Shown here: piece by piece, positions 23,582-28,913 of the stretch
How positions within the stretch are numbered: the stretch's first letter is position 1
Layout of the letters: each line of letters opens with the position of its first letter
NCBI RefSeq assembly: GCF_002872335.1
Contig: NZ_NJAG01000021.1
Span: 1-64,000, forward strand
Source: Siphonobacter sp. BAB-5405
GTDB lineage: Bacteria; Bacteroidota; Bacteroidia; Cytophagales; Spirosomataceae
Length of the DNA: 64,000 bases
Direction of reading: 5' to 3'
The notes under the pieces: model-generated
Database searches by the model: none
Told to the model about the DNA's origin: nothing
What the model saw: the letters and a program-made list of their open reading frames with translations, nothing else
Program-made: the position numbers and the translations under genes

Positions 23582-24418
23582 ATGAAAAATATTCTTGTCG
23601 CGGTTGATTTTACCGAAAATTCACGGCCTGCTCTCGAATCAGCCATTTTTCTGGCCTCCAAAAGCGGAGCAACGTTGCATGTGTTGCATACGTATCTGCC
23701 GGTTTACCCCATGACCGAAACCGTAAGCGGTCCGCCCGTGACGGTGGAATGGGAGGAAACCTATCGGCTGTCCGCTCAGACCCAACTGGATACTCTGACC
23801 GAAGAAATGCGGGGGCGGGGCCTGGCTCCGGAAATCTACCTCGAACTTGGCCCCGTAGGGCCCGTAGTGAAAGACATGGTGCAATCTCACGCCATTGATC
23901 TGGTCGTTCTGGGTCGGAGTGAATCCGATAGTTGGCTGTCAGACTTATTTGGCAGTACTGCTACGCAGTTGGTGAATGATTTGACCGTACCTCTGCTGAT
24001 GGTGCCTTCGGAGTTTTCGCAACGCGGATTTACCAGGATTGCCTACGCTACCCAGCTTGAATTTACGGAAACGCACGTACTGAAGGATTTGTATCGCTGG
24101 GCCGATTACATGGGAGCGACGGTACAGATCATCAACGTGCAGGCCGATCACGAACCCAGCATTAACTCCGATGAAGAGCTAATGAACGAAATTCGAACGG
24201 CGTTTCCCGATCGGCATACTACGGTATTACAACGGAAAGCGGACTCCGTGGAAGACGGTATTCAGGAGCTGCTGCACGATACAGAAGCCGATTTACTGGT
24301 GATGAGCTCACACCACCGGAATCTGTTTACGCAGATCGTGAATCCCAGTAAGTCTAAAAAGTTATTGCTGCATAGCCCAGTGCCTACACTGATTTTCCCG
24401 CTGGGCCGACTGGATTAA
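23582..24418 (+). CDS. Universal stress protein, tandem UspA domains
   Basis: A 278-residue cytoplasmic protein with two Usp folds, about 1-142 and 148-278. The first begins MKNILVAVDFTENSRPALESA and carries the nucleotide-loop pattern VVLGRSESDSWLSDLFGSTA, close to the G2xG9xGS/T ATP-binding signature. The second ends DLLVMSSHHRNLFTQIVNPS, followed by a basic segment in place of a perfect loop, so ATP binding by domain 2 is doubtful. Tandem UspA proteins of 270-290 residues are common in Bacteroidota. Their roles lie in stress survival and are not defined here. The gene has its own promoter and terminator. Confidence 0.92.
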   Translation: MKNILVAVDFTENSRPALESAIFLASKSGATLHVLHTYLPVYPMTETVSGPPVTVEWEETYRLSAQTQLDTLTEEMRGRGLAPEIYLELGPVGPVVKDMVQSHAIDLVVLGRSESDSWLSDLFGSTATQLVNDLTVPLLMVPSEFSQRGFTRIAYATQLEFTETHVLKDLYRWADYMGATVQIINVQADHEPSINSDEELMNEIRTAFPDRHTTVLQRKADSVEDGIQELLHDTEADLLVMSSHHRNLFTQIVNPSKSKKLLLHSPVPTLIFPLGRLD

Positions 24419-24423
24419 TGGTG

Positions 24424-24487
24424 TTCTGTATAAAAAGCAAGAAGTCCGAAGCGGTACCGCTTCGGACTTCTTACTTTTTATACAGAA
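24424..24487. terminator. 64-bp near-perfect palindrome, bidirectional terminator
   Basis: The whole stretch is self-complementary around 24455/24456 with a single mismatched pair. The inner 30 bases (24441-24470) are perfect. The arms also contain matched A and T runs. It sits between the convergent stress-protein and C25-peptidase genes and serves both. Confidence 0.88.
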
Positions 24488-24489
24488 TA

Positions 24490-24612
24490 TCAGCGAACGA
24501 TAACCACACGACCCGTTGCTTTAAAAGCCGGATCAATGATCGGATAGGTTTGTCCGTTCTGGCTCAATTTCAGTCGGTAGATATACGTGCCGGGCGGAAG
24601 GCGGTTGCCTGA
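24490..24612 (-). pseudogene. Out-of-frame C-terminal tail of the C25 peptidase gene
   Basis: Shifting frame by one base near 24608 continues the protein as GNRLPPGTYIYRLKLSQNG and on to a stop at 24490-24492, ending VVIVR. That is the expected type IX secretion sorting-like C-terminus, matching the preceding YFWNGTDHQ. In the existing frame the gene instead ends early with ATAFRPARISTD. One missing G in the minus-strand CAGG/GCAAC context explains it. This is either a true frameshift or a sequence error. Confidence 0.85.
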
Positions 24613-27600
24613 TGGTCGGTACCGTTCCAGAAATACTCGTTGGTTCCTACTCGCAGCGGCTGGCTTTCGTTGCTAAGTACGCGTAGCAATTGTCCCTGCA
24701 TACTCATGATCTCAACCGTCATGGCATCGGGGAGACTGTCGCCCGTCAGTACCAGATGGAAGCGGGTATACAGCTCCAGCGGGTTCGGGCTAACCAGAAA
24801 CTGCTGAAGTCCCGTTTCCGCCTTGACCTGGAAACGAATGGCGTAAGGCAAAGCTCCGGCATTGTTACCAGCCACATCACTCCCCTGGGCCTGGAAGAAA
24901 TACGTGCCCTCGGCCAGGTTTTTAGGCTGGTAGGTAACCCGTACTTCATTACCGGCCAGCGTATCCCATTTCATAGCCGGGTTTTTGTAGGAAAGGCGTT
25001 GTAACGCACCTTCCGGTTTTTGCCAGTATAAATCGATTCCCACGGTATCCTTCTTGATTGCGTATTTATTCGAATCTTTCACACGAACGACAATCACGGG
25101 ATTCGCCGAAACGTAGTCTCCTTCGCGGATCGTTCGGCCATCAAACGTCACTTCCAGCGTGGGTGCCGTGCGGTCGGCCTGCACGTTCAGAGCAAACGTA
25201 ACGGTGTTGTTGGTATAACTTACTTCAGGTAACACCTGTGGATTGACACTAATCGAAAGACGATTTTCTCCGGCCTGCAAATTCCGGTACGTCAGCGACA
25301 GGGGAATCGACTTGGCGGCGGCTACCCGGTATTGTTTCGTAGTGGTAACACTGGCGGCGGCATTCGTGAGGGTTTCGGTAACCAGCAGTGAATCCGTAAA
25401 GGTAGCCGTGCTGAGTACATTGAAATTCAGAGCCTGCGTAAAGGAAGCCCCTTCTTCCAGTGTCAGCGGTAGTGTGGACAGGTACGAAGTACGTCCCTGT
25501 ACGTACAAGGCTCCTTCAGGAACGCCCTGATACGAAACCAGCCAGCGTTTCAGTTGTGGAGCCGTAGGACCACTGATTTTTTCCCGTAATCGCAAATACG
25601 GATATTGCCTGGCGTCAATCTTGCTGATGTCAATCAGCGTTGACGTAAGATTAGTAATTAGCAGCGTTTCATTGCCACGGGCATCTACCCCGTACACGTC
25701 GAGCGAAGACTTCTGCTGAGCGTTTTTGGTGACCTGCTGGCGAATGGCACCCCAGCGAGTGGTAGGACCAATCAGCGAAGAAGTCAGCACACCCGACGTC
25801 GCCGAGCCCGAAAAATCCCAGCGGCCGTTCCGCAACAGTACCTGATCGGTCAGTACGTTTTCGAACTGGTTTGACTGGCTTTGAGCCCAGCCGTCTTCCA
25901 CCCCTTTGATGTACGTGAATGAATACGTAGACCACTGGTTGGTACCACTTACGGCCTGATCGGCATCGCGTACCCGCCAGTAATAGACGGTGCTGTCAGA
26001 AGCAAGCAGAGCTACTTTCCAGCCTTCGACATTGCTGGAAGGCAACGTCGTTGTTTTCTTGAACGTACTGGTGAAGGCCGCCGACGTATCCAGTTCGAAA
26101 AGGATATTTCCCGCAGTTACGCTGGCATTCGTTGGCGTATAGTCCGCCATCAGACGAGCCGTCGGAGCACCGTTTTCCTGCGTTCCTACAATGGCAAAAT
26201 CGTGCGGCAATACGGGCCGGGCTAACGAACCGGGCAGGGCGAGGCTAATGAATGCTTTGTTGTTCTGTTTGTTTAATTCATCAATCTGATTGGCCGCGTC
26301 GATCGTCACATCAAAGCGGTTGGTTCCACCACTGTTTGCGGCATTGGTTACGGTGAAGTACAGCGTATCCTGATAGGCAACCGGAGCGTATCGACGCGAA
26401 CCCAGGTCAATTTCGCGGCCATTAGAAAGTGTCCGCTTCAGGCTGATGGTAAAAGGTTTAACCAGATTCCGACCCAGGTTACTGACCACCATTCCTACGC
26501 GGAACGAATCCGCACTGGCTACGACCTCTTTTCCATCAAAACCTTTCAGAAACAGGCCAGAGTTCGTAACGGCGTAATCGGGTTTGGTATAAGGGAAGGG
26601 AACAATAGCAGGATCGCCCTGAAGGACAAATTGTTGAGAATGTCCTAAAGCCATTTCACCCGGATAAGCTTTGAGATAACTACGGATGGTCGTGAGCAGG
26701 GAACTACCAAAGGATTTGCCCAGACCTAATTCGTTTTTGAACATCTGTTCGTAGAGGGTCGTAGAATAGCCGTTCAAATAGGTAGGGAACCCACTAAAAC
26801 TGGTGGCAAGAGCCAGAATTGCTCCCCGATCGGCTGTATTTACCCAGTCGGAACTGAGTGGTATGGCCGCCAGGTTGTTATCGAAAATGTTGCCGGCATC
26901 ACAACCATTAATAATCATAATGGGATACTTTCCTTTGTTCCGATAGCCGAGTGACTCATTCGTCACATATCCTACATCGATGTCCGAGATTTGAGCTGCG
27001 GCGTGACCGAAAAAAGTAATGAAGCCCAGGCCTTGATTGACGGAGCTGGAGATGTTGATAAACTCAACCGGATCATCCGTTTTTTTAGAAGTAATGGATA
27101 CTTTTCCGCCTAGATTATTCTTTTCAGCAATCGTTTTGTAGTTCTCAACGTAGTTGCGAAATAAGTTGAGTTCTCCAGTAGTTTTACCACCACTCAGGTG
27201 AAGGAAGGATTTACGCCACAATGCGGGTTCCTGCCGTTCATATTCTTTGACTTTATTTAGATAGGCTAATACTTCTTCCGGCTTGGTTACGCTCAAACGG
27301 CCCACCGGAACGCCCGGAATATCCTTTTCACCCGTCAGACCTTCAACGGTAACCCAATCGGATCCCGGCCAGCCGCCCGCAGGTACGAGGTTATTCTGGT
27401 AGAAATCAGGAATAAAACGGTAAAACTGAGGAGCCAGAGCTTTGCCAATCAGGAACAGGTGCTCGGGTTTGCCATGTTGAATCATGTAATCCGCAAAGTG
27501 GCGAACAGCCACGCCACTACGCTCACCGTAGTTAAACTGATCGGCTAAAAAGTCAATATCGACAACCAGTGTATCGTGTTTACCACCCGCTGCTGATGCT

Positions 27601-28913
27601 CGGTAGGTGGCGTATTCTTTGACAATATCTGCATAACCCCCTGCAGGTTTCTGCAGACGTTTATTCGTAACAATGAGGTAGTTGCTTTTAGCCGGATCAA
27701 TCTTGCGGAAGCCGGTCGGTTTGATAGTAGCTACATTCTTTAATTGTCGATTCACCCAGAGACTACGTCCAGAGCTGGTTTGTGAAATGACAGCTGATAA
27801 AACACCATTCGTCAGCGTACCTGTAATACGACGTATCTGGTCGGGTTGGGTAATGTCGTAAATCTGATCGGTTGCGGAGGCGGAACCAAGCTGAACAAAC
27901 GAAGTGCCTGTAGTATTGGCTCGTAAACGGAACGTTTTACCCGTATTCACTCCCTGCAGCGTCAGGGCTTGCGGGTACGAAAGTTGCGTGTAAACCACGT
28001 AGTTATATTCATTATCGAAAGAACCCTTGGTAGAAGCAACCGTTAAAACGTGTGATTGAGCTGACAAATCACTCCAGTCGAGGTCGGCCTTGAATAGCTG
28101 AAGATCGTAATTTTTGAAATCGATTGTTCCCAAAAGTCGGTTTTGGGTCGAGCTGGTTCCTCCTCGGATCTCAAGTTTATGGGGATCGGGTGTACCTCCG
28201 TAGATTGACAGCTCCAATTTAGGTTTGTCCCCTGCGGTATAGGGATTGGTAAGGGAAAAGGTATAGCTTTTACTTTGCCCGTTATTGATCCTTGCGTCGG
28301 TATAGCCTTTGCCTACTTCATAAGAGCTAATCGTCATTCCTGAAAGGTACCGTACGCCAATTGGATACGTAGGCCCCACGGGATAACCCGCTTTAAACAA
28401 CAGAAGCTCATCCTGCCAGTGAAAGGGTTCCGCCTGCAAGGTTCCGGGAGCCTGTGCTGCCACCGTTTCCATTCGTTTTCCGGGCTGACTGTCCAGTCGG
28501 TAGGTTAAATAGTAGTACGTTGTATCACTGAATAAACTTACTTTCGGATTGGTTTGAAGCTTCGGATCCCGGTACAAAGAAGCATCCCGACTACCGTCAT
28601 TGGGAACACCGTAAAATTCAACGTAATCGTTGCTGTCAAACTTGCCATCTTCCTGTCCACTAACCGTTATAGCTTGCTCCGTACCTTGTTTAAAAAGTTG
28701 ATAGGAAACGGGGTTCTTTTCAACAGGAAAACCGGCTTGCCGTAGCTGGTCATAAGGAATACGATAAACGCCTTTTTCCCAGACCGGAATTTTAAAATAC
28801 GTTTGTTCGTAGTTAATCCATTCATTCCCAAATCGGCCCTGCTGAGCATGACTTCGACTAAATAGGAGCAAGCCAATAAAAAGAATATATAAAGTATAAC
28901 GGTTGGCTAACAT
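24570..28913 (-). CDS. PorU-like C25-family cysteine peptidase (PorU2 type), 3' end frameshifted
   Basis: A 1447-residue exported protein related to the type IX secretion C-terminal signal peptidase/sortase PorU. A signal peptide covers residues 1-23 (ending SHAQ). The N-terminal half (about 25-400) is beta-rich. The gingipain-like C25 domain covers about 405-760 and retains the catalytic dyad: H637 in ITFFGHAAAQ and C671 in IMIINGCDAGN. Beyond it lie CARDB/Ig-like domains (about 780-1350) and a sorting-domain-like end that is cut by a frameshift near 24608. The C-terminal repeats and size fit proteins annotated PorU2 better than PorU itself. It is the last gene of a leftward run with a GT-C protein (9-base gap) and an acyltransferase. 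Confidence 0.85.
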   Translation of the reverse strand: MLANRYTLYILFIGLLLFSRSHAQQGRFGNEWINYEQTYFKIPVWEKGVYRIPYDQLRQAGFPVEKNPVSYQLFKQGTEQAITVSGQEDGKFDSNDYVEFYGVPNDGSRDASLYRDPKLQTNPKVSLFSDTTYYYLTYRLDSQPGKRMETVAAQAPGTLQAEPFHWQDELLLFKAGYPVGPTYPIGVRYLSGMTISSYEVGKGYTDARINNGQSKSYTFSLTNPYTAGDKPKLELSIYGGTPDPHKLEIRGGTSSTQNRLLGTIDFKNYDLQLFKADLDWSDLSAQSHVLTVASTKGSFDNEYNYVVYTQLSYPQALTLQGVNTGKTFRLRANTTGTSFVQLGSASATDQIYDITQPDQIRRITGTLTNGVLSAVISQTSSGRSLWVNRQLKNVATIKPTGFRKIDPAKSNYLIVTNKRLQKPAGGYADIVKEYATYRASAAGGKHDTLVVDIDFLADQFNYGERSGVAVRHFADYMIQHGKPEHLFLIGKALAPQFYRFIPDFYQNNLVPAGGWPGSDWVTVEGLTGEKDIPGVPVGRLSVTKPEEVLAYLNKVKEYERQEPALWRKSFLHLSGGKTTGELNLFRNYVENYKTIAEKNNLGGKVSITSKKTDDPVEFINISSSVNQGLGFITFFGHAAAQISDIDVGYVTNESLGYRNKGKYPIMIINGCDAGNIFDNNLAAIPLSSDWVNTADRGAILALATSFSGFPTYLNGYSTTLYEQMFKNELGLGKSFGSSLLTTIRSYLKAYPGEMALGHSQQFVLQGDPAIVPFPYTKPDYAVTNSGLFLKGFDGKEVVASADSFRVGMVVSNLGRNLVKPFTISLKRTLSNGREIDLGSRRYAPVAYQDTLYFTVTNAANSGGTNRFDVTIDAANQIDELNKQNNKAFISLALPGSLARPVLPHDFAIVGTQENGAPTARLMADYTPTNASVTAGNILFELDTSAAFTSTFKKTTTLPSSNVEGWKVALLASDSTVYYWRVRDADQAVSGTNQWSTYSFTYIKGVEDGWAQSQSNQFENVLTDQVLLRNGRWDFSGSATSGVLTSSLIGPTTRWGAIRQQVTKNAQQKSSLDVYGVDARGNETLLITNLTSTLIDISKIDARQYPYLRLREKISGPTAPQLKRWLVSYQGVPEGALYVQGRTSYLSTLPLTLEEGASFTQALNFNVLSTATFTDSLLVTETLTNAAASVTTTKQYRVAAAKSIPLSLTYRNLQAGENRLSISVNPQVLPEVSYTNNTVTFALNVQADRTAPTLEVTFDGRTIREGDYVSANPVIVVRVKDSNKYAIKKDTVGIDLYWQKPEGALQRLSYKNPAMKWDTLAGNEVRVTYQPKNLAEGTYFFQAQGSDVAGNNAGALPYAIRFQVKAETGLQQFLVSPNPLELYTRFHLVLTGDSLPDAMTVEIMSMQGQLLRVLSNESQPLRVGTNEYFWNGTDHQATAFRPARISTD

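Follow-up and report, generated by a model that had tools for sequence, protein, structure and literature searches.

A one-base frameshift near the 3' end of a PorU2-type peptidase gene of Siphonobacter sp. BAB-5405: most likely an error of the sequence, otherwise a trivial mutation of recent date

A gene for a putative PorU2-type peptidase of the type IX secretion system (T9SS) has lost a single base close to its 3' end relative to its counterpart in the closest sister species, and its last 39 codons consequently lie in a neighbouring frame. The frameshift is most likely an error of the sequence or, failing that, a trivial recent mutation. The gene lies in the window, that is the whole analysed stretch of 64,000 nucleotides, which corresponds to bases 1-64000 of the 112-kb contig C51 in the assembly of Siphonobacter sp. 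BAB-5405 (6.49 Mb, 246 contigs, some of them 500-700 bases long). The relatives used for comparison include five genomes from the genus Siphonobacter, whose species are the nearest named relatives of the peptidase gene. The closest sister species, referred to as G001, encodes an orthologue with 92% protein identity to the window's version. The features of the region are as follows.

24570-28913, minus strand: open reading frame of the PorU2-type (C25) peptidase, 1447 aa, assigned by profile matches and the C25 dyad
24608-24610, minus strand: loss of one base relative to G001, placed by nucleotide alignments with G001 and a further relative, G005; the exact base is not assignable
24493-24609, minus strand: displaced last 39 codons, covering sorting-domain strands 6 and 7 (tblastn, 21-member alignment and model of the intact sister protein)
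24490-24492, minus strand: original stop of the displaced frame, at the same place as in G001 (TAG there, TGA here)
24424-24487, strand not given: inverted repeat, probable terminator (self-complementary match with a 15-pair terminator-like stem)

The peptidase frame is native down to approximately position 24610, where it reads ...EYFWNGTDHQ, and then continues through 12 foreign, out-of-frame residues, ATAFRPARISTD, to a stop at 24570-24572. The whole-gene nucleotide alignment with G001 contained one single-base gap and no others. The tail encoded in the neighbouring frame matched the final 39 residues of the orthologue in G001 with 97% identity (tblastn, E 1.8e-17), which is far more than expected by chance. 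The gap and the displaced tail together uphold the one-base frameshift that the earlier note had placed near the 3' end of this gene. The same note had traced it to one G missing from a short G run; the loss of one base was confirmed, but the run amounts to two bases, GG in the window and CC when read on the plus strand, compared to AAGGG in G001 and AGG in G005, and which base was lost is not assignable. No second or alternative copy of the lesion site is present in the BAB-5405 assembly.

The peptidase belongs to a known family and is unremarkable within it. Its residues 11-885 align to positions 3-879 of the 879 positions of the NCBIfam profile NF052324.1 (putative type IX secretion system sortase PorU2) and score 954 bits where the cut-off is 450, and Pfam Peptidase_C25 gives 209 bits. 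Both residues of the C25 dyad are in place, His in a GHA motif at 636 and Cys in NGCDAG at 671, aligned to GHG and TCEFG of PorU. Profile and dyad identify the product as a PorU2-type T9SS sortase whose sortase/transpeptidase activity is putative, as the family name itself reads; the literature search found no paper on PorU2. The "PorU-like" label given to the gene beforehand is supported by these matches and by the fold of the intact sister's C-terminus described below. PorU proper (NF033707) was rejected, since the peptidase reached 187 bits, below the cut-off of 420. The canonical PorU of BAB-5405 is a separate intact gene with a 1096-codon frame above that cut-off (contig C4, 302948-306139), and a shorter PorU2-type paralogue, also intact, is located on contig C1. 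In another Siphonobacter the canonical PorU is split over two frames in a draft assembly (G002, contig C22, 168624-171820, loci L053 and L054). The NF052324.1 profile leaves out the C-terminal domain, and it is this domain that the frameshift shortens in the window whereas intact relatives retain it.

The full tail was found in all 21 aligned homologues, from the genus Siphonobacter out to other Bacteroidota, which excludes the possibility that the early stop is natural among orthologues. Six of the 21 invariant columns in the C-terminal alignment (G137, L140, G143, Y145, Y147 and G169) fall in the displaced part. Between the lesion and the original stop ten sites differ from G001, distributed 1/0/9 over codon positions 1/2/3 of the original frame, an excess at third positions that has P = 0.0004 under uniform placement. 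This pattern indicates that selection acted on the tail in its original frame almost to the present. The lost tail still bears the mark of purifying selection, and the change of frame is therefore either very recent or unreal.

The C-terminus of the intact sister protein was modelled with a mean pLDDT of 85 and pTM of 0.69 and forms seven strands after residue 68. It superimposes on residues 1054-1157 of P. gingivalis PorU (PDB 6ZA2) over 98 residues with Z 9.9 and rmsd 2.8; PorU was the top row in both fold comparisons, in which many unrelated rows stood at 8-9 as this sandwich fold commonly gives middling Z values. A plain sequence search for solved relatives returned none at E 0.001. The peptidase resembles P. 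gingivalis PorU in its C25 His/Cys dyad and, in the intact sister, in its C-terminal fold, and differs from it by its score under the PorU cut-off. The frameshift occurs after residue 136 of the modelled C-terminus, so that strands 6 (143-153) and 7 (168-173) are missing. The model of the window's version (mean pLDDT 76, pTM 0.48) has no native strand beyond residue 130, and the seven-stranded sandwich with its last strands intact is not formed, the 12 foreign residues taking the place of strands 6 and 7. The T9SS type A sorting domain profile TIGR04183 (cut-off 23) gives 21.9 bits for the intact orthologue of G001 and 27.0 bits for that of G005, in contrast to a partial match of 14.9 bits, without the second half of the profile, for the window's version. 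The loss of a sorting-type C-terminus proposed from the reading frames is supported.

When the last six residues of P. gingivalis PorU were replaced by histidines, the protein stayed periplasmic and the effect resembled that of a PorU deletion, and RgpB lacking two residues was trapped in the periplasm (PMC11285876). By analogy with these experiments, extended here to a PorU2-type protein, the peptidase product as written is probably non-functional and would not reach the surface. Should the lesion be real, C-terminal strands 6 and 7 would be absent from the product, which would then fail in folding or in type IX recognition and stay periplasmic. Automatic annotation would record the peptidase as lacking a sorting domain.

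In a survey of one-base lesions, 550 genes of G001 were compared with the DNA of BAB-5405 and 557 genes of BAB-5405 with the DNA of G001, which covered about 0.67 Mb of shared genes and about 0.84 Mb of the BAB-5405 assembly; the gene calls were mechanical, and a fixed rule excluded differences near gene starts. Interior frameshifts were found 10 times in 550 genes in BAB-5405 and 2 times in 557 in G001 (Fisher P 0.02), or 9 versus 1 (P 0.011) when a doubtful site that had entered both counts was omitted. Eight of the nine BAB-5405 lesions were losses of a single base, and the tracts concerned varied in length but were mostly short. Clear nonsense lesions were rarer, with about one late nonsense in a real-looking gene beside the 9-10 frameshifts. 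The two halves of a lesioned RND pump were 99.7% and 99.4% identical to G001. Both mutS and mutL are intact in BAB-5405, and a mismatch-repair mutator was therefore rejected as the source of the indels.

The earlier note had left a recent mutation and a sequencing error side by side as causes. Both remain, and the excess of one-base lesions together with the intact mutS and mutL favours an error of the draft over a private mutation. The pattern of the lesions fits one-base drop-outs in a draft better than decay or a mutator, real mutations being a possible source as well. We therefore consider it fairly probable that an ordinary PorU2-type T9SS peptidase gene only appears to have lost one base close to its 3' end, through an error of sequencing or draft assembly. 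The excess of lesions could also mark real mutations in a laboratory-passaged strain, and G001 is perhaps better finished or less decayed. That no lesioned gene is clearly essential would also be expected from real mutations.

A real, very recent private frameshift mutation is a possible, if rather less probable, cause. The peptidase would then be inactivated or stuck in the periplasm, and the canonical PorU and the second PorU2-type gene, both intact in the same genome, could allow this to be tolerated. The low divergence of the tail would suit such a recent event. On the other hand, the assembly-wide excess of the same type of lesion requires no story specific to this gene, and real decay usually yields nonsense lesions along with frameshifts, of which the former are the rarer here.

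Phase variation, also suggested in the earlier note, would mean that slipped-strand changes in a short tract toggle the surface-sorting signal of the peptidase, and the one-base change in a G-containing stretch does disable exactly the putative secretion signal. Frequent slippage needs a tract of roughly seven or more, whereas the tract has two to three bases in the window, G001 and G005. The aligned homologues are all full-length, and among them no tract is conserved and no relative has a variable one at this place. Phase variation is thus a very improbable cause, and a real frameshift switching in the population, with the peptidase toggling between surface-exposed and periplasmic forms, is more doubtful still. 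Programmed ribosomal frameshifting, by which short and full-length products would both be made from the two open frames overlapping at the lesion, is hardly credible, as in homologues the tail is continuous with the rest of the frame and no such shift is needed and CATCAGGCAACC contains no recognisable slippery heptamer.

One-base lesions of BAB-5405 outside the window were located on contigs C1 (about 152302-154437), C4 (about 92017 and about 167594), C2 (about 104196) and C51 (about 76514 and about 98163). The genes affected were an RND pump, a cobT-like gene, a TonB-dependent receptor, a histidine kinase, a possible nucleoside transporter and a DNA glycosylase-like gene; the names of the pump, the cobT-like gene, the kinase and the glycosylase-like gene come from reading of the sequence and not from family searches. 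Such lesions occur in BAB-5405 at about one per 70 kb of coding DNA. In view of these lesions in conserved genes, truncated genes of this assembly should not be taken as biology until the reads are checked.

The inverted repeat begins directly past the original stop, which fits a true gene end at 24490. One terminator-like 15-pair stem was found versus 0.2 expected, and the hairpin is probably a terminator common to the peptidase gene and a UspA-like gene that converges on it at 23582-24418. The repeat, which lies between these two genes, is long, nearly perfect and largely kept in the sister species.

Genome-wide, type A sorting-domain matches numbered 47 in BAB-5405 and 39 in the sister species, and BAB-5405, by its 47 matches, possesses a sizeable set of T9SS cargo proteins.
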